Source: Bradyrhizobium sp. AZCC 2262
GTDB taxonomy: Bacteria; Pseudomonadota; Alphaproteobacteria; Rhizobiales; Xanthobacteraceae
DNA: 64,000 bases
NCBI RefSeq assembly: GCF_036924535.1
Contig: NZ_JAZHRT010000001.1
Location: forward strand, 2,976,001 to 3,040,000
Direction: 5' to 3'
Part shown: piece by piece, positions 7,234 through 53,723 of the stretch
Position numbering within the stretch: position 1 is the stretch's first letter
Layout: each line of letters opens with the position of its first letter
Program-made: the position numbers and the translations under genes
Notes under the pieces: model-generated
What the model saw: the letters and a program-made list of their open reading frames with translations, nothing else
Told to the model about the DNA's origin: nothing
Databases searched by the model: none

Positions 7234-8955
7234 ATGACGACGCAAGACAGCAGCACCTATTGGAAGCGCTCACGGGTTGAACTACGCGCCGCCGGATTCG
7301 ATCCGGACCGCGCCGCGCAGACCAGTGCGGTGGTGACGATCGCCAGCGCCTACACCAATGCCCATCGTTGCAACAATCGTGTGCGCGCTATCACCGATCT
7401 CCTGGTGGAGATCCTGGCGGAGCGCGGCGGGCAGGGGCTGATCGTCGGCGCGCCGGCGGTGTCGGATGCCCTGACGCAGGGCACGCCAACGGCGGGCTAC
7501 AGCCTCGCGTCGCGCGACGTCGTCGCCGACTGTTTTGAGATCGGCCACTATGCCCATCATGGCGATGCGATGATCGTGATTTCCGGCTGCGACAAGACCG
7601 GCGCGGCCGCGCTGATGCCGCTCGCGCGTACCAATGCCTTCGGGCTTGTGCTCTATCCCGGCACCAGCACACCGGGCCGCGTCTCGTTCGGCGCATGGGC
7701 CAGCAAGGGCAACAACATCACGATCCTCGATTACGCCGAGGCCCGCGCCGCCAACGAGTCCGGCCGACTTTCCGGCGAGGAGCTGCTGGAAGTCGAGCGC
7801 AACGTGATGCCCGGCAGCGGCACCTGCGGCGCGATGTTCACGGCCAACACCATGAGCACGATCGCGGAATCGATCGGCATGATGCTGCCGCGCGGCGCTT
7901 CGCATCCCGCCGATTACGACGCCGGCAGCGACGTCCATGCCGACGTCCGCGCCCAGGCCCGCGCCTCGGTCGATGCCTTGTACCGGCTGATGGAGGCCGG
8001 CATCCGGCCGCGCGACATCATGACCGAGCGGGCGTTCGAGAACGCGATCACCACCGTCTACGCCATGGGCGGTTCGACCAACATGTATCTGCATTTGCTG
8101 GCGGTGGCGCGCGAGGCGCAGGTGCCGATCACGATCGAACGCATCCAGCAGGTCGGCGAGCGCGTCCCGCTGCTGGCCAACCTGCAGCCGCATGGCCCGT
8201 TCGCGATGGGCAGCCTGCATGCGATCGGCGGCGTGCCGATTGTGATGAAAGAATTGCTCCGCGCGGGCCTTCTGAATGGCGACGTCATGACGGTGACCGG
8301 CAGGACCTTGGCGGAAAATCTCGCCGACGTTCCGACGCTGGAGCAGATGTCGCCGCAGGAGATTGTTTTCCCGGTGTCGAAACCAATCGCGCCGGCGAAC
8401 AACCACATCAGCGTTCTGAAGGGCAACCTCGCGCCGGAGAGCTGCCTGCTCAAACTGTCAGGCAAGGCCCTTGAGAAGGGTCAATTCCGCGGCATCGTGC
8501 GCGTGTTCGAGTCCGAAGCTGATACGATGGCCGCGATCCGCGCCGGCGAGATCGTGGCGGGCAATGTCATCGTGGTGCGCAATGTCGGCCCGGTCGGCGG
8601 GCCCGGCATGCCCGAAATGGTGATGCTGACGATCCAGTTGCAGGGGCGGGGCCTCGGCGAAGATGTAGCTTTGATCACCGACGGCCGTTTCTCCGGCGTC
8701 TCGCACGGCATCCTGATCGGCCACGTCTCGCCGGAAGCCGCGCGCGGCGGCCCGATCGCCGCGGTGCGCGACGGCGATACCATTGTCATCGATCCAGGCG
8801 CCCGCACCGTGACTCTCGAAGTGCCGGCAGAAGAGATCGCCCGCCGCATGGCCGACTGGCGCGCACCGGCTTCTGTTGCCGAGGTACGGCCCGGTTCGGT
8901 GCACGACAAGTACATCCGATTAGTCTCGTCGGCGCACTATGGGTGTGTGCTTTGA
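7234..8955 (+). CDS. IlvD/Edd family dehydratase (dihydroxy-acid or sugar-acid dehydratase)
   Basis: From ATG 7234 (after TGGAG) the protein has 573 residues, normal for the family. Signature segments include a cysteine in [27 protein letters not shown] with the second cysteine, and [24 protein letters not shown] with the third. Together these would hold the Fe-S cluster. GGPGMPEMV and [12 protein letters not shown] near the C-terminus are also typical. These enzymes dehydrate 2,3-dihydroxy acids or aldonic acids. With no valine or isoleucine genes nearby and a divergent N-terminus, a sugar-acid substrate such as an aldonate is as likely as the IlvD reaction. Confidence 0.88.
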
Positions 8956-9030
8956 AGCAGGCCTAGCATACGCTAGAATTGAACCGACCTAATCCTGGGC
9001 CGAGACCTTGCCACTACTGCGACCGCGCAT

Positions 9031-10714
9031 ATGAAAGCGAAGGAACAGCCCCGATTCGATACCGATGCGTTGCGAGGCCGCGCGGGCGACAAGGTGTTCG
9101 GGCGCGGCGAGGCTTACCATCGCGACGGTCAAGTGCAGATTCTCACCATCGAACCGGAGCGCGTGCTGGCGCAAGTCGCAGGCACGGAGGATTACCGTAC
9201 CCAGCTTACGGGGCGAGGCGGCAGCATCGGCGGGCATTGTTCTTGCCCCGCTTTCGGGGATTGGGGGGTATGCAAGCACATGGTTGCTGTGGCGCTGGCG
9301 GTTAACGCCGCGGGCGCCGATGCGGAGGCGGCGGACGGCGCGCTGTCGCGTATTCGTGACCATCTGAAACTAAAAAGCGTCGATGCGCTCGTCGAAATGA
9401 TCGTGGAACTGGCCGAACAGAATCCGGCTTTGTTCCGCAGGCTCGATGTGGCGGCAACAGTCGTGAACGCCGATGATGCGACGGTGCGGAAGCGCCTGCG
9501 CAAGGCAATCGATTCGGCGACGCGGACGCGGGACTATATCGAATATAGCGAAGCGCCGGACTGGGCGGCGAACGTGGAAGCCTCGCTCGACGCCATCGTC
9601 GATCTTGCGTCGGGAACCCGCGCTGGCCTCGCGCTGGAGCTTGCGGAATATGCGATCGACAGCATCGAGCGGGCCATCGACAGCATCGACGATTCCGACG
9701 GCCATTGCGGTGGGCTTTTGCATCGCGCGCGTGACATCCATCTTGCCGCGGCTGAGTCCGCGCGACCCGATCCCATGCCACTCGCCCGCAACCTTTTTTG
9801 CCCGCGAGGTGGACGGAGACTACGATACGTTCGCAGACGCCGCGCAACTTTACGCCGATGTGCTCGGGGATCAGGGCCTCGCCGAATACAACCGCCTCGC
9901 CCTGAAGGCTTGGGAGAAACTGCCCAAGCGCAGCGGGAGAGGGCGGGCGCACGACGATGGATTCTCCGCCGACCACGAGCGGCTGAAAGCAATCCTCGAC
10001 TTCTTTGCCGAGCGCGCCGGCGATGTCGAGACACGGATCGCGTTACGCGCCCGCGACCTGTCCTCCGCCTGGCGCTGTCTGGAACTGGCGCAATTCTGTC
10101 AATCGCAGGGCCGCATGGACGAAGCGCTGCGCCGGGCCGAGGAAGGCTTGTGGGTGTTCGAGGACGGTCAACCCGACGAGCGGCTCGTGTCGTTCACCGT
10201 CACCCTGCTCTCGAAATCCGGCCGGAAGGCGGACGCGGAAGCGCTGTTGTGGCGGGCTTTCGAGAAGGCGCCCAGCCTTGAATTGTACAAGCAATTGCGC
10301 AAGCTTGGCGGCAAGATCGCGCTCGAGCGTATCATTGGAATCCTTGAGACGCGGTCAGCCGGCAAGGAGCGCGCTGGCTGGTACACGCTCGCCGATCTTC
10401 TCGTCTGCATCCTGACCGAAGAAAAGATGTTGGATGCGGCGTGGGCCGCTGCGCACAAGCACAAGGTATCGTTCGGAGCAAAATTGGCTCTCGCCAACGC
10501 GAGCAAGGCCGCGTATCCGCGCGAAGCGCTCGAAGTCTACGCTGAGCGCGTCAACCAGTTCGTTAGCACGGGTGGCAATCACGCCTATGGAGAGGCGGCA
10601 AAGCTCATCGCCCGGATGGCTGCCTTGCAAAGCGCGACCGAGCAGGCGGCTTACGTCGCGACGCTGAAGGAGCGCCATCGGCAGAAGCGGAACTTCATGA
10701 AGCTGCTGAGTTGA
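9031..10714 (+). pseudogene. SWIM zinc-finger protein with a frameshift at a T6 run
   Basis: The N-terminal part (9031 to about 9799) has a SWIM motif, CSCPAFGDWGVCKHMVAVAL, near residues 71-90 and an alpha-helical continuation. Coding then jumps from frame 1 to frame 2 at TTTTTT (9794-9799). With five T residues it would read LARNLFAREVDGDYDTF without interruption and give about 560 residues. The second part, to 10714, is TPR-like and helical (LDFFAERAGDVETRIALRARD, LYKQLRKLGGKIALERI) and resembles DUF6880-type C-termini. Either the gene is broken, the base is a sequencing error, or slippage on the homopolymer produces full-length protein. The intact downstream frame suggests the change is recent. 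Confidence 0.75.
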
Positions 10715-11861: not shown

Positions 11862-12164
11862 TCATTTCTCGGCTTTTGCGTTCCCGGATTCCCACGGAGC
11901 GGTGCGTTGAAAGAGTTCGACCATTTGAGGTACCGGACGCCCGGGTTGCGAAAGAACCTCTATAAAGGCCTTGAAGCCAGCCGGACTCATGCGGATGGGC
12001 GCCGCTTCCATCAGAACATCTTCCGCCGCACGTACTGCAGCCTCGCGCACGAAATCGGTGCGCGAACGGCCACGCAAGCTGGCCGCGCGATCGATAATGG
12101 CGATATCAGTTTCAGGCAGTCGCATCGATAGCGGATGCTCTTTTCGTTTTATGACGCGCGGCAT
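11862..12164 (-). CDS. DUF1778 (ribbon-helix-helix) antitoxin
   Basis: A 100-residue TacA-like antitoxin beginning MPRVIKRKEHPLSMRLPETDIAIIDRAA, a ribbon-helix-helix DNA-binding segment. The C-terminal part (SPAGFKAFIEVLSQPGRPVPQMVELFQR) should wrap and neutralise the toxin. I chose ATG 12164 because AGGAG lies 7 bases upstream and the ribbon-helix-helix domain starts there. An in-frame ATG at 12215 would extend the protein through the promoter. It is likely to repress its own promoter together with the toxin. Confidence 0.85.
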   Translation of the reverse strand: MPRVIKRKEHPLSMRLPETDIAIIDRAASLRGRSRTDFVREAAVRAAEDVLMEAAPIRMSPAGFKAFIEVLSQPGRPVPQMVELFQRTAPWESGNAKAEK

Positions 12165-12174
12165 TCGGAATCTC

Positions 12175-12215
12175 CTACAGAAGCTGTAGTGTATTTTACA
12201 ATACGAATTTTTCAA
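12175..12215 (-). promoter_or_regulatory. toxin-antitoxin promoter with two inverted repeats
   Basis: On the minus strand a -35 box TTGAAA (12210-12215) and a -10 box TACACT (12188-12193) are 16 bases apart. The repeat GTATT-TTAC-AATAC (12191-12204) sits in the spacer and touches the -10 box, a likely antitoxin operator. A second repeat CTACAG-AAG-CTGTAG (12175-12189) lies just upstream of, and partly over, the ribosome-binding site. It could act as operator or as an mRNA hairpin. The sequences are seen; the roles are inferred. Confidence 0.55.
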
Positions 12216-12255
12216 GTTGCTAAGCGGCTTTGTTCATGATCTGTTCTAGTCTATC

Positions 12256-12798
12256 ATGGACGAGTTTGCAAGCTGTAGTGGTGCCCGATTATTCCTCGCG
12301 GCCGTTCCCGATGCAGGCACGGCAGCGCGAATTCACCAATTGGCTGGCGTACTCAAGCGCGCGCATCATTTCGACGGCAAGCTCATTGCGCCCGAGCGGC
12401 TGCATATTTCGCTGTTCGCTCTCAGCGGGTTGTCTGAGGGCCAGCTTTGCGCCGCGCGGGAGGCGGCCATGGATGTGCGAACCGAGCCGTTCGAGGTCTC
12501 GTTCGATTGCACGGCAAGCTTTCGGGGGCGGCCGGGCAATCGCCCGTTCGTCCTGATCGGAGAGAAAGGATTGCGCCGGCTGCAGTCGTTTCGGCAAATG
12601 CTCGGCGCCGCGATGACGCGAAGAGGATTGAGGCGGCTGGCCAACACGAATTTCGCGCCCCATGTCACGTTGTTGTATGACGCACGTAGCGTAGACGAGT
12701 ATCCAATCGAACCGATTGGCTGGACGGTTACGGAGTACGTACTCGTCCGCAGCTTGAACGGCCACGAACACCTCGTACGATGGCCTCTGTGGGTATGA
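12256..12798 (+). CDS. thpR: RNA 2',3'-cyclic phosphodiesterase (2'-5' RNA ligase family)
   Basis: A 180-residue 2H phosphoesterase with the two family motifs: HISLF at residues 50-54 and HVTLLYD near residue 136. These histidines form the active site that opens 2',3'-cyclic phosphates on RNA ends. The N-terminus (RLFLAAVPDAGTAARIHQLA) matches ThpR. It is transcribed away from the toxin-antitoxin promoter. Length and motif spacing are normal. Confidence 0.85.
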   Translation: MDEFASCSGARLFLAAVPDAGTAARIHQLAGVLKRAHHFDGKLIAPERLHISLFALSGLSEGQLCAAREAAMDVRTEPFEVSFDCTASFRGRPGNRPFVLIGEKGLRRLQSFRQMLGAAMTRRGLRRLANTNFAPHVTLLYDARSVDEYPIEPIGWTVTEYVLVRSLNGHEHLVRWPLWV

Positions 12799-12840
12799 CA
12801 GGTAATTTGCGGAGTTATCCAGCGGACATTCCTGGACGTG

Positions 12841-13476
12841 TTATTTCGCCACAGCGAGCCGCTCAATCATCTCGTCGATCGAGTTGAACAGATATGTTGC
12901 TCCCGCCGCCTGCAGTGCGGACGGAAAGGCATAGCCCCAGGCCACGGCGCCCGAGTCCATGCCAGCGGCCCCAGCCGCCTCGATATCGCGGATCTCGTCG
13001 CCGATGCAGATCGTCTCCGAAGGTTTTACGCCGAGCCTCCGTGCGACACGTCGAAATTTCCAGTGCTTGCCGAACAGCGCGGCACCGCAGTCGAAGCGGG
13101 TGATCAGACTGGCGGTGGGTCCGAGCACTTGCCGGACGGAGGCGTCGCTGTCGGAACTGACGATGGCGGTCTTGATGCCCTGGCGTTGCAGGTCGGTCAG
13201 CATGGCCGGGATGCCGGCGAACAGCGATATCTCGCTCGCGGCGGCAAGCTTGCGCTTTCGCATGTCGCTGACGATGGTCGGCAATTGCCACATGGATACG
13301 TTGAGCCGCGCCATGATTTCGCGGGCGGACAGGCCGCGCAGTCCTTCCACCTCGTCGTCGCGGACGGGCGCAAGATCGAACCGAGTAATCATGTCCTGGA
13401 AGGAGGCGCGAAACCAGGGAAGGGAATCCGCCAGCGTGCCGTCGAAGTCGAAAATAGCGAGGCGATAACGCTCCAT
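12841..13476 (-). CDS. HAD family hydrolase (phosphoglycolate phosphatase-like)
   Basis: A 211-residue HAD phosphatase. Motif I is IFDFDGTLADS at residues 8-18, motif II TAIVSSDSD, motif III has the lysine in FGKHWKF, and motif IV is CIGDEIRDIEAA. A small helical cap lies after motif I, as in the Gph/PGMB subgroup. The substrate is undetermined. The gene lies 22 bases downstream of the SDR gene on the same strand and is probably co-transcribed with it. Confidence 0.88.
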   Translation of the reverse strand: MERYRLAIFDFDGTLADSLPWFRASFQDMITRFDLAPVRDDEVEGLRGLSAREIMARLNVSMWQLPTIVSDMRKRKLAAASEISLFAGIPAMLTDLQRQGIKTAIVSSDSDASVRQVLGPTASLITRFDCGAALFGKHWKFRRVARRLGVKPSETICIGDEIRDIEAAGAAGMDSGAVAWGYAFPSALQAAGATYLFNSIDEMIERLAVAK

Positions 13477-50375: not shown

Positions 50376-50586
50376 GAAGGGAGTGAGTCGCAGTCTCGGT
50401 GGAACGGGCAATGTGTCATAGCATGACTGAGGTAGCATGGAGGCATGATATCATCCTGTTATACGTCGGACGTGCCGCAGGACGAAGACTTGTAGTAGAG
50501 GAGGTTCACACCGCTAGGGCACGATAAATCCAAGTAACCAAATCTAACCACTTTCTTGAGATTCTATAGACGCTTGAGAGAACTCC

Positions 50587-51339
50587 ATGGCCGAAACATC
50601 AATCGAATGGACCGACGCGACTTGGAATCCTGTGGCTGGTTGCACCGTGCTTACAGCAGGCTGCACGAATTGCTACGCCATGCGGATGGCGGCCAGACTT
50701 GAGGCGATGGGGACTGCGAAGTACCGCGGCCTCACCCGGAAAAGCGGGCGACGCGCAGTCTGGACCGGCAAAATTCGTTTGGATTATGCATCGCTCGATA
50801 CACCGAGAACGTGGTCAAAGCCACGCAAGGTTTTCGTCAACTCAATGTCCGACCTTTTCCATGATGATGTTCCAACTGAATTCATCGCTCGGGTTTGGGA
50901 CGTGATGAAGGAAACACCTCGGCACACGTATCAAATTCTCACTAAGCGCCCCGAGCGCATGGCACACGTTCTAGCTCAACGATCATTCGAAATCCTCCCG
51001 AACGTCTGGCTCGGCACCAGCATTGAGGATGGTCGCGTTCTGTATAGGTTGGATGCCATTCGGCAGGTGCCAGCCGCAATCAGATTTGTTTCCCTTGAGC
51101 CGCTGATCGGGTCCGTAGCCGATGGCGATCTCACCGGCATCCATTGGGCGATCGTTGGTGGGGAGAGCGGCCCGCGCGCCCGCGAAATGAAGCCTGAGTG
51201 GGTCGACGAGATCGAGACGATGTGTCGTTCCTCTGGAACGGCCTTCTTCTTCAAACAGTGGGGTGGAAAAAATAAGAAGGCGGCCGGTCGCATACTAAAT
51301 GGCAAGACCTACGATGAGATGCCCGACCTGCGGCCGTGA
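50587..51339 (+). CDS. DUF5131 (phage Gp37/Gp68 family) three-cysteine protein
   Basis: A 250-residue protein opening MAETSIEWTDATWNPVAGC. The family's Cys-x6-Cys-x2-Cys cluster is at residues 19, 26 and 29 (GCTVLTAGCTNCYA). It is followed by FVNSMSDLFHDDVP, YQILTKRPERM, NVWLGTSIED and GGESGPRAREM. The cysteine layout recalls a Fe-S cluster of radical-SAM-like enzymes, but the reaction is unknown. It faces the TcmP gene with 2 bases between the stops. The flanks look more AT-rich than the surrounding DNA, which suggests transfer. Confidence 0.88.
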   Translation: MAETSIEWTDATWNPVAGCTVLTAGCTNCYAMRMAARLEAMGTAKYRGLTRKSGRRAVWTGKIRLDYASLDTPRTWSKPRKVFVNSMSDLFHDDVPTEFIARVWDVMKETPRHTYQILTKRPERMAHVLAQRSFEILPNVWLGTSIEDGRVLYRLDAIRQVPAAIRFVSLEPLIGSVADGDLTGIHWAIVGGESGPRAREMKPEWVDEIETMCRSSGTAFFFKQWGGKNKKAAGRILNGKTYDEMPDLRP

Positions 51340-51341
51340 TC

Positions 51342-52169
51342 TCATCGGTATTTTTTGAAAATGTCGCCGATGATTTTTTGCGCAACGGGTTTCTGAGAAG
51401 CAAAGAACAAGTAGTACACGACAGCATTGGTGCTGTTCTTCATCGGTAGGGGCTCGGGGACGAACTCGAAACCAGCCACTTTGCGCAGCCTTTCACGAAA
51501 GGCGCCTACAATCGCGTCATTTCCCTGTTTTACGATGTCTGGCGCACCGAACAAATTGCCTTGCGGGTGTTCGGCGTAGGCCGCTTCTCTCCAAGATTCA
51601 TCACCCCAAAAGCTGTTCATGCGGTCAATGCCTTCCTTCGGAACGACGGAGGGATTCCGCCAGATCGCGTTCCTGTTCATGTCCATCACCGGAAAATTCA
51701 GGAACATGTCGATGGCCCGGGACTGACCTGCCATCTCCATCGCGCGCCATTCAAGGTGAAGACCGTAGGGGTCGAAGAGGCAAAGCGCTCGCTTAAATTC
51801 GCTGTACTTGATAGTCGGCAGAAGCGTTTGGGTGAGATATTTCGACGCGTCGCCCGTTTCTATGTGGACGTTACCGCGGCCGGCACAAAGCTTTTTCAGA
51901 TGCGCCGTCTTCTGGGCGTCCATATCGATAAAAAAGAAACTGTCGAAAGGCGGCGTCGTCTTCAACGCGCGGGCCGGGCTACCGTCGATCGGCCCACCAC
52001 TGCGCTTCGAGATGTGCACACCGGCGCCACTGAACGCGTCGACGTAGTATTTCTTCAGGCCTCGTTGATTGGCGAAAGCTGCGGTATAGGCCGAACCGTA
52101 TTTCTCAACGATCTCAAGCTTTAGCTCGGACCAGATGCCAACCTCGTCGAATTTAAAGGGCGTAGGCAC
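51342..52169 (-). CDS. tcmP: three-Cys-motif partner protein TcmP
   Basis: A 275-residue protein starting at GTG 52169; a stop lies immediately upstream in frame. The methyltransferase-like core shows YYVDAFSGAGVH near residues 41-52, FFFIDMDAQKTAHLKKL near 78-93 and CLFDPYGLHLEW near 130-141. It ends VYYLFFASQKPVAQKIIGDIFKKY. The family is defined by its regular association with DUF5131 proteins, here convergent. It probably acts with that protein on a nucleic acid or nucleotide, which is inference. Confidence 0.88.
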   Translation of the reverse strand: MPTPFKFDEVGIWSELKLEIVEKYGSAYTAAFANQRGLKKYYVDAFSGAGVHISKRSGGPIDGSPARALKTTPPFDSFFFIDMDAQKTAHLKKLCAGRGNVHIETGDASKYLTQTLLPTIKYSEFKRALCLFDPYGLHLEWRAMEMAGQSRAIDMFLNFPVMDMNRNAIWRNPSVVPKEGIDRMNSFWGDESWREAAYAEHPQGNLFGAPDIVKQGNDAIVGAFRERLRKVAGFEFVPEPLPMKNSTNAVVYYLFFASQKPVAQKIIGDIFKKYR

Positions 52170-52319
52170 AGGCGTTGGTCATGTGTTGCTTCCACTTCTT
52201 CAAATGCTGCCACAAGTCCCTCCCAACGATCACTATTTTCATCGGAAGTGCTACCTGCATATCTAGCAACTTTAGGTAATTTTTCAACCACTGGCTATGC
52301 GCGCGTTCAATTCAGCGCA

Positions 52320-53723
52320 TCAGGAAGCGATAGCGGGACATGTCCAGATGCCAATAGGTCGCTCAAGCCCACGAATGCTCTGTGCCGGCTGCTCGACGAG
52401 CAACGCGAAGTCTCCGCTCGAATGGCTGGATTCCGTCCGCGCCTGCTGCACCAGCGCGTCGCTAACCACGATGGCGCATCCGAATTCGCGGGTAAGCGCC
52501 TCGAGCCGGCTCGCCGCATTCACGGTGGTGCCGATCACGGCGAATTCGAGCCGGTTGAGGCCGATGTCCCCAAGCACGACCTGGCCATAGTGCAGTCCGA
52601 CGCTGACCTGGATCGGCGGCTCGTTGCGATCTTTCCGTTCTCTGTTTAACTCCGCAATCGAATCGATCATACCCCTCGCGCAACGCAAGGCGTTCAGCGC
52701 GTCGGAATCGCCGGCGAACGGCGTACCGAATGTCGCCATCAGGCCGTCGCCGAGATACTTGTCGAGCGTTCCGCCGTGCCGAAACACTTCTCGTTCCATC
52801 CGCTCATGGAACTGTCGCAGCGTGCCGATAACCTCCTTTGGGTCTCGTCCATCGGCATAGGTAGTGAAGCCCACGATATCGGCAAACAAAACGGCGACGT
52901 CCTGGGTGTGAACCCGCGTGAGTGGCTCGTCATTGACAGACAGTTGCTCGACGACATTGGGGGAAAAATACCGCGCCAGGTTGGTCCGTTCGCGTTCAAT
53001 CCCGGCGTGGCTGATCAGCAGGGCGTTGGAACGGCGCACCGCCAGCGCCAACGTCATGGCGACGATCAGGAACACCGTGATTTCTTGGAAGCGCTCCGGA
53101 ATGCCGATCGATGAGGGGTTGATGATGTGGAACATCCTGACGTCGGAGCCGATGGCGGCTCGCACGCGTTCCGACAACTCGGCGTGGGTTTCGGGCTGCA
53201 GGTACGCCCAGCCCACCCCGATTGCCCACACGGCCGAGGTCCAGAAGCCCATCGCGACCACCGTTCGCCACGAATAGGCAAGGGTGGCGGTTGCGAGGAA
53301 GACAAAGAAATAGATGAAAGTCTCGAACCGGAATTGCATGCCGACCGGCCAGTTCGCGGCGCTCAACGGATTGGGCACGACCGTGAGCAGGGTAATTAAC
53401 GCCAGATCGCAAAAGATCAGGAAAAGCTCCGGCAGCGAACGCCCTACTTTGCCGACGTTCAATTGGGCCCAGCCGATCGCGGCAAAAAGGCCGAGCATCA
53501 CGACGTAGTAAATCACGTCCCAGTTCGGGTTGATGATCGGCAAGGTAACGGCAATCACCGCCAGCGCGACCCAGCGGGCCCGGACAGCGAGTAGAAGGCC
53601 TTGGCGCTTGCTTTCCGCAATGGCCGCTTCGGCGAACTTCTGGGTGTCTTGCTGGGCTTCGGTTCGTCCGGCCCGCCGGTCGCCGGAATAGGGGACATCA
53701 GCCGCTTCCGCCACTACGCTCAA
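52320..53723 (-). CDS. membrane-bound class III adenylate/guanylate cyclase
   Basis: About 467 residues from TTG 53723 (GGGAGA 7 bases upstream); a TTG at 53759 is an alternative. The N-terminal half holds about six membrane helices (ALAVIAVTLPIINPNWDVIYYVVMLGLFAAIGWA and others). A linker NLARYFSPNVVEQL leads to the cyclase domain: VLFADIVGFTTYAD, LDKYLGDGLMATFG and RLEFAVIGTTVNAASRLE. Catalytic positions appear intact. The membrane part is probably the sensor; its ligand is unknown. Confidence 0.85.
   Translation of the reverse strand: MSVVAEAADVPYSGDRRAGRTEAQQDTQKFAEAAIAESKRQGLLLAVRARWVALAVIAVTLPIINPNWDVIYYVVMLGLFAAIGWAQLNVGKVGRSLPELFLIFCDLALITLLTVVPNPLSAANWPVGMQFRFETFIYFFVFLATATLAYSWRTVVAMGFWTSAVWAIGVGWAYLQPETHAELSERVRAAIGSDVRMFHIINPSSIGIPERFQEITVFLIVAMTLALAVRRSNALLISHAGIERERTNLARYFSPNVVEQLSVNDEPLTRVHTQDVAVLFADIVGFTTYADGRDPKEVIGTLRQFHERMEREVFRHGGTLDKYLGDGLMATFGTPFAGDSDALNALRCARGMIDSIAELNRERKDRNEPPIQVSVGLHYGQVVLGDIGLNRLEFAVIGTTVNAASRLEALTREFGCAIVVSDALVQQARTESSHSSGDFALLVEQPAQSIRGLERPIGIWTCPAIAS

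Follow-up and report, generated by a model that had tools for sequence, protein, structure and literature searches.

The closest described relative of the locus examined here, a DUF5131 gene and a TcmP gene lying side by side in Bradyrhizobium sp. AZCC 2262, is the candidate defence system PDC-M41 of PADLOC-DB. The two genes lie in a window of 64,000 nucleotides (contig NZ_JAZHRT010000001.1, positions 2,976,001 to 3,040,000), by which we mean the whole stretch of DNA that was analysed. The TcmP protein matches the PDC-M41A model (3e-75) and the DUF5131 protein the PDC-M41B model (4.4e-106), the genes being adjacent with a 2-base gap, and there is no family-level difference between PDC-M41 and the pair in the window. 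Since PADLOC-DB names the same pair PDC-M41, it is already catalogued as a candidate defence system and is not new, although PADLOC offers no mechanism. The preliminary description of this DNA had called the pair uncharacterised, which holds for its chemistry but not for its catalogue status. A related PADLOC system, PDC-M30, has component B in common with PDC-M41, and its component A is weakly matched by the TcmP of the window (1e-4). In an excerpt of one study, PDC-M30 was predicted in 32 strains of a 100-strain P. aeruginosa panel, and 68.8% of those strains were phage-resistant (PMC10855318). TcmP is also found in the neighbourhood of Hna on pSymA of Sinorhizobium meliloti, where an expression table places it (SMa2243) next to the Hna helicase (SMa2245); Hna is a separate helicase system, and the passage in question assigns TcmP no role (PMC12445080). 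We found a pSymA stretch that contains two TcmPs and a DUF5131. The open-access full texts searched contained no mention of DUF5131, PF07505 or PDC-M41, wider word searches returned no functional study of the pair, and a PDB search with each single sequence (E ≤ 1) gave no relative of either protein.

We observed a near-obligate pairing of the two genes, the exchange of one of them, the presence or absence of the pair at one site, and family relations by sequence; from these we infer that the two proteins would act in a joint reaction, on adenine, in nucleic acid and in defence. Our preferred reading, to which we give a little less than an even chance, is that the pair forms a mobile two-enzyme nucleic-acid-modification cassette, most likely acting on adenine, and that it is retained for conflicts involving phages or other mobile elements.

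Pairing of DUF5131 with TcmP

The DUF5131 gene (50587-51339, forward strand) encodes 250 amino acids from an ATG start, and the TcmP gene (51342-52169, reverse strand) encodes 275 amino acids from a GTG start. Both open reading frames (ORFs) are intact and convergent, with two bases (51340-51341) separating the stop codons. The DUF5131 protein passes the gathering cut-off of PF07505 (320.7 bits against 28.9; 8e-96) and the TcmP protein the curated cut-off of TIGR04474 (192.1 bits against 53); a Pfam scan of TcmP (E ≤ 0.1) returned no family. The ORFs and motifs confirmed what had been read from the letters at first, namely a tail-to-tail pair with DUF5131 cysteines at x6 and x2 spacing and with DAFSGAG and DPYG in TcmP. 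Both genes are under purifying selection, the ratio of nonsynonymous to synonymous substitution rates (dN/dS) being 0.088 for DUF5131 and 0.071 for TcmP against the copy in another genome (G109).

We examined how regularly the two genes occur together, using mechanical ORFs as gene calls in the loci of relatives. Across 242 genomes of the genus, TcmP was found in 82 (77 over the cut-off) and DUF5131 in 100, and a DUF5131 lies within 2 kb of 87 of the 93 TcmP loci, neighbouring pieces having been merged. The six unpaired TcmPs are all partial matches, and 15 of the 42 DUF5131 loci without TcmP are matches shorter than 600 bp. In a scan of 398 genomes of the phylum, all 24 genomes with TcmP over the cut-off also have DUF5131, which exceeds its own cut-off in 40 genomes (Fisher p = 3e-28); the nearest TcmP and DUF5131 matches are 30-468 bases apart in 21 of the 24, and the other three (G000, G102 and G109) have pairs in the genus list. 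Across phyla, among the best 80 of 328 loci, DUF5131 is present at 76; these loci came from a search with an alignment headed by the TcmP of the window and are therefore biased to its type. The four loci without DUF5131 are two TcmPs at a contig edge, one fragment (L352) and one full-length TcmP (L330). The linkage of TcmP to DUF5131 is near-obligate, which upholds the recurring pairing, and with it the joint action, put forward in the preliminary description.

The order of the two genes is far less constant than their linkage. The 87 loci of the genus comprise 29 convergent pairs, 30 in tandem with TcmP first and 28 in tandem with DUF5131 first, and since the three layouts are about equally common, the convergent one is incidental. 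Across phyla, 62 of the 76 pairs have TcmP ahead of DUF5131 in tandem, with genes that mostly overlap or lie a few bases apart; nine are in tandem with DUF5131 first and five are convergent. Antisense control, for which the convergent layout had been thought to allow, was therefore rejected as a general feature, as the layout is conserved neither in the genus nor across phyla. A pairing that is kept through three gene orders is, however, better evidence of a joint function than a single operon would be. At some loci two TcmPs accompany a single DUF5131 (G473:C55, G501:C36, G557:C7, L324, L391, L392, L394 and L396), as though two partners shared one radical enzyme.

Family relations of the two proteins

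DUF5131 is probably a radical S-adenosylmethionine (radical-SAM) protein, chiefly because radical-SAM proteins take its place beside TcmP. In plasmid stretches of Halopiger, Haloarcula, Natronosalvus and Nostoc, TcmP adjoins proteins that exceed the cut-off of the Pfam family Radical_SAM (PF04055) and have a CX3CX2C motif (six proteins at four loci), and the DUF5131 profile has no match in those stretches; five of the six proteins have a weak match to spore photoproduct lyase. At L330, an ORF that begins one base after the full-length TcmP matches a profile built from three radical-SAM partners of TcmP (E = 4.5e-17). The constant theme thus appears to be a TcmP together with a protein that is, by its sequence relations, of radical-SAM type. 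The two ORFs at L330 (L330:9989-11630, on an Omnitrophota contig) lie between a trpB-like gene (8655-9827) and a trpA-like gene (12118-12909), that is, within a trp operon, these names having been read from sequence starts with no family search.

The cysteines of DUF5131 at positions 19, 26 and 29 (codons at 50641-50673, forward strand) form a C-x6-C-x2-C motif and are invariant in 92 aligned sequences including that of the window; in some DUF5131s the first spacing is 12 in place of 6. All 92 match TIGR04471 (radical SAM mobile pair protein A, rSAM_mob_pairA), the window protein doing so at 2e-20 with 73.1 bits, below the curated cut-off of 355, which makes it a relative and not a member. When the DUF5131 profile was compared by hhalign with 21 radical-SAM ORFs of this genome, one of them (L375), whose close relatives carry the names 'PA0069 family radical SAM protein' or 'DNA repair photolyase', gave 41% and one other 8%. 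NPVAGC-x6-C-x2-CYA in DUF5131 stands in register with NPYRGC-x3-C-x2-CFA in L375, and more generally the NPxxGC...GCxxC[YF]A motif and downstream segments of radical-SAM proteins of the PA0069 and spore-photoproduct-lyase type align with DUF5131. It differs from that type in having CX6CX2C instead of CX3CX2C, and in lying under the Radical_SAM cut-off.

Several results weigh against this assignment. The window DUF5131 misses the cut-off of PF04055, and a single one of the 92 members matches that family, at E 0.2. The remaining 19 of the 21 radical-SAM ORFs did no better in hhalign than 60 controls (maximum 1.2%), the value for L375 falls to 20% when 13 of its close relatives are taken with it as a family, and the six haloarchaeal and Nostoc radical-SAM proteins reach 5-24% with DUF5131. 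Through the radical-SAM link, the cysteine motif, with three Cys as for a 4Fe-4S cluster, would nevertheless be of the Fe-S type, in keeping with the cluster that its spacing had suggested at the outset.

TcmP, in turn, is predicted to have an RlmJ-like class I methyltransferase fold. RlmJ is the N6-methyltransferase of A2030 in 23S rRNA (PF04378). The top matches of the TcmP profile in the PDB are RlmJ chains (E ~0.05), hhalign of TcmP with RlmJ gave 91-95% for four of four RlmJ sequences and at most 2.7% for 81 controls, and profile-profile comparison gave 95.7% and 94.7%. The TcmP-model matches that lie below the cut-off in the phylum scan include RlmJ, as four of the six loci looked at gave PF04378 ORFs at 1.7e-61 or better, while at the other two the ORF picked was not the matching frame; an E. 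coli control gave a TcmP-model match that was likewise below the cut-off. In a joint alignment, TcmP Lys17 (codon 52119-52121, reverse strand) falls on RlmJ Lys18, and Asp133, in the DPYG of motif IV (51762-51773, reverse strand), falls on the catalytic motif-IV Asp (D164 in E. coli). Motif I (DxxAGxG; DAFSGAG at 52020-52040, reverse strand, by analogy a putative SAM-binding loop) and GSP are also in register. At the N-terminus, around the catalytic Tyr4 and His6 of motif X in RlmJ, the alignment is gapped and speaks neither for nor against a likeness. Lys17 is invariant in 18 TcmPs and present in at least 90% of 81, and Asp133 is invariant in 81. An excerpt of a study of E. coli RlmJ reports that K18A and D164A each abolish activity (PMC3814359). 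The methyltransferase-like core that had first been noticed in TcmP is thus matched by the similarity to RlmJ, with the motifs in register.

TcmP is unlike RlmJ in several respects. The segment between motif I and GSP, the helical subdomain of RlmJ, is mostly missing or much shorter. The Pfam family RsmJ (PF04378) is not matched by the window TcmP and is matched weakly by 6 of the 81 aligned TcmPs (best 0.0015). A GMT-like winged helix (wHTH, PF22560) is found at the C-terminus of some longer TcmPs; it is over the cut-off in L122 (2e-17) and L109 (2e-8) and just under it in L096 (2e-5), whereas none was found in L100, L125 or gp43 of the Gordonia phage Angelique. Two points tell against a close equation with RlmJ. 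The 81 controls were not picked as methyltransferases, so that the choice of RlmJ over other methyltransferases rests on the PDB ranking and on the 6 of 81 weak RsmJ matches. Moreover, motif IV of TcmP is DPYG and not DPPY, with DQ in one sub-group, a comparison that is a weak test since the four aligned RlmJ relatives themselves have DPSY. Given this motif, that N6 chemistry is retained in TcmP is something that we only infer.

Insertion, exchange and decay

The pair is a two-gene insert of about 1.9 kb and low guanine-plus-cytosine (GC) content between radA and a membrane cyclase gene (PF00211, 52320-53759). A cyclase homologue at least 73% identical occurs in 42 genomes, and the gap between radA and the cyclase gene could be measured in 38, the AZCC 2262 genome included: it is shorter than 200 bp, and thus empty, in 19, holds the pair in 8 and holds other inserts in 11. 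BLASTN alignments of the window to nine pair-free sites show that homology stops at 50376-50426 and restarts at 52310-52342, and the inserted cassette (50427-52309) is missing at the empty sites of relatives. Its GC content is 0.539, about four standard deviations under the mean of same-size overlapping windows (0.627, standard deviation 0.022), of which 1 of 311 is equally low; by gene, the values are 0.564 for DUF5131, 0.540 for TcmP, 0.654 for radA and 0.610 for the cyclase gene. No integrase ORF was found inside the insert, and no convincing terminal repeats at its borders. The locus is hence AT-richer than its surroundings, as had been noted, and its low GC content and the empty sites in relatives support the acquired origin proposed for it. 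The large accessory island envisaged at the same time was rejected, as the insert holds two genes in about 1.9 kb and its flanks align to empty sites.

The same types of DUF5131 and TcmP stand next to radA in four other genomes (G109, G044, G074 and G197), and G028 and G184 have a different tandem pair at this site. Because other inserts are found there in 11 of the 38 genomes, we regard the radA-cyclase interval as a tolerant integration site. By eye, these inserts (L151-L161) include an ABC transporter set, acyl-CoA dehydrogenase-like genes and a LysR-type regulator. A defence hotspot at this site was considered and rejected, since by ORF reading, with no family scan, the other inserts look like ordinary genes. 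The AZCC 2262 genome has a second pair outside the window (L121, G000:C1:9205423-9206930), in tandem with TcmP first; its DUF5131 is 69% identical to the window copy and its TcmP is different (~24% identity over part of the length).

At the radA site of four genomes (G006, G020, G194 and G237), DUF5131 is 87-90% identical (80-84% for the DNA) and both flanking genes are kept, but TcmP is only 27-29% identical, and by about 50 bp from the DUF5131 stop codon the DNA identity has sunk to background. The cleanest exchange is that of G020, with an interval of 1965 against 1884 bp; it counts against a simple exchange in G006, G194 and G237 that their intervals of 3.3-3.4 kb are 1.4-1.6 kb longer, so that more than TcmP differs there. 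When locus pairs whose DUF5131s share 85% identity or more were compared (139 in all), TcmP identity was 70% or higher in 57, and 36 had a TcmP below 40% or with no match; this count covers 75 loci, after 12 of the 87 with broken or contig-cut genes were dropped, and the locus pairs are not independent. The reverse case was also found (L074 against L090, with TcmP 78% and DUF5131 48% identical). Between L087 and L092, dS is 0.04 for TcmP and 0.33 for DUF5131, which points to a recent transfer of TcmP. Specificity or arms-race components are swapped in this way beside a partner that stays the same, so TcmP is probably the component that carries specificity, and its recombinational exchange may be likened to that of the specificity subunits of type I restriction systems.

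The two genes also differ in their decay. Of the 86 pairs of the genus that could be scored, 10 have a broken TcmP and none a broken DUF5131 (p = 0.0015); a gene was counted as broken if it was split into pieces, had an internal stop or covered less than 75% of the model, as read by hand from tables with one contig-end locus per gene excluded. This asymmetry implies that, of the two, TcmP either costs more to keep or is lost faster. It also favours a toxin-antitoxin-like abortive system, in which TcmP would be a harmful effector that makes a toxic RNA or DNA modification, and DUF5131 would restrain, mature or reverse it. Such a system would fit the frequent occurrence of DUF5131 alone (42 loci in the genus and 47 of 80 viral loci), the absence of any full-length TcmP lacking DUF5131 among the 93 TcmP loci, and the presence of a variable effector beside a constant partner. 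However, antitoxins usually vary along with their toxin, whereas here the supposed antitoxin is the constant part; moreover, TcmP is a large methyltransferase-like protein, and two TcmPs can share one DUF5131. We consider this explanation unlikely, and it is the pattern of decay that keeps it from being more so.

Genomic context and proposed function

The evidence for a defence context is mixed, as it holds for some plasmid loci and not for flanks in the genus of the window. Clear defence genes lie within about 8 kb at 6 of 14 annotated plasmid loci, compared to none of 10 control windows. The six loci are those of R. rhizogenes (type ISP, DUF262), Leisingera (two Abi genes), Agrobacterium pAt (DUF1837 and helicase genes, which we take to be Hachiman-like), Rhodococcus (zeta toxin and DUF3375/DUF4194/ATPase genes, the DUF3375/DUF4194 genes being presumably Wadjet-like), Nostoc (BREX) and Nocardioides (N6-methylase, McrC); among the others, one has toxin-antitoxin genes only and seven have nothing clear. 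The 14 loci remained from 16 of 25 matches opened, two being unannotated, and the controls were a second window from 10 of these plasmids, one with a reverse transcriptase gene and one with toxin-antitoxin genes. All six positives are among the ten loci that have a control window, which gives p = 0.011 for 6/10 against 0/10 and p = 0.024 for 6/14 against 0/10, or 0.057 and 0.17, respectively, if the control reverse transcriptase is counted as defence. Loci were scored by eye on their product names, not blind, and the controls were picked after the test windows had been viewed.

For the genus, the result weighs against a role in defence, as the flanks have no excess of PADLOC matches, with 40 families in 150 flank proteins (of 536, from 65 loci) compared to 37 in 150 control proteins (of 252, from 20 random regions). 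The same scan of flanks in other phyla gave 170 families in 146 of 489 proteins, a figure with no matched control and with many overlapping models, which we do not count as evidence. The enrichment near defence genes that the preliminary description had proposed to look for is thus seen at some plasmid loci (6/14 against 0/10, with one ambiguous control) but not in the genus flanks. PADLOC Pycsar cyclase matches in two genus flank proteins probably stem from the PF00211 cyclase, which is likely to give false positives when this genus is scanned for defence genes.

Taken together, the results are consistent with a mobile pair of enzymes, one half being constant and of radical-SAM type and the other exchanged and methyltransferase-like. 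In the modification cassette that we prefer, DUF5131, as a spore-photoproduct-lyase-like radical-SAM enzyme, would supply radical chemistry. TcmP, with its RlmJ-like fold and adenine-N6 Lys and Asp, would recognise the target and probably either methylate it or present it to DUF5131. As targets change, TcmP would be swapped between strains while DUF5131 is kept. The kinship with RlmJ suggests adenine in nucleic acid as the target. The lack of a nuclease in the cassette speaks against this proposal. In a more specific form, the pair would embody a new two-enzyme immune chemistry, in which the product of an RlmJ/Dam-like methyltransferase, or an adenine bound by it, is reworked by the radical-SAM partner to yield a hypermodified base, which would block replication or translation of the invader, the exchanged TcmP setting the target; we hold this form to be rather doubtful.

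DUF5131 is also carried by phages, being present in 159 of 50,697 phage records, in which one TcmP query found 2, and in at least 595 stretches of viral contigs, where TcmP adjoins 33 of the 80 loci kept and is lacking at 47. The Gordonia phage Angelique (L397) has a convergent pair, with gp43 as TcmP by profile (2.7e-38), between the integrase and the immunity repressor, a place where lysogens often carry cargo genes. A lone DUF5131 lies near a replication gene in Squirty (L398) and near a sliding-clamp gene in PhiCh1 (L400); no TcmP was found near it in either phage, and lone phage DUF5131 may have a different role. The number of viral copies, the 33 loci with TcmP and the position of these lone copies would all suit a cargo for self-modification or anti-restriction, with which a phage or plasmid decorates its own DNA against host restriction and which is merely parked in chromosomes. 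Yet the pair in the window stands alone between core genes and is under purifying selection, and that of the Gordonia phage sits in a lysogeny module, so we think this explanation quite improbable.

Equally improbable is a repair or housekeeping function useful in stress, with TcmP guiding a spore-photoproduct-lyase-like repair enzyme: the closest matches among radical-SAM proteins are PA0069-family 'DNA repair photolyase' proteins and proteins with weak spore photoproduct lyase matches, a DUF5131 of a Mesorhizobium phage is annotated as spore photoproduct lyase, and the window copy lies next to radA, but a patchy distribution (TcmP in 82 of 242 genomes of the genus), low GC content and an exchanged TcmP are unlike housekeeping, and a housekeeping link to radA was rejected because the adjacency is explained by the insertion site.

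The pair is widespread, occurring in bacteria, in phages and, in its radical-SAM form, in haloarchaea. What had been a vague DUF pair can now be stated as a testable chemistry, that of a probable radical-SAM enzyme and an RlmJ-like partner in which the catalytic Lys and Asp are found. If the pair is antiviral, it would represent a radical-SAM immune system unlike viperin, possibly with a new modified base.

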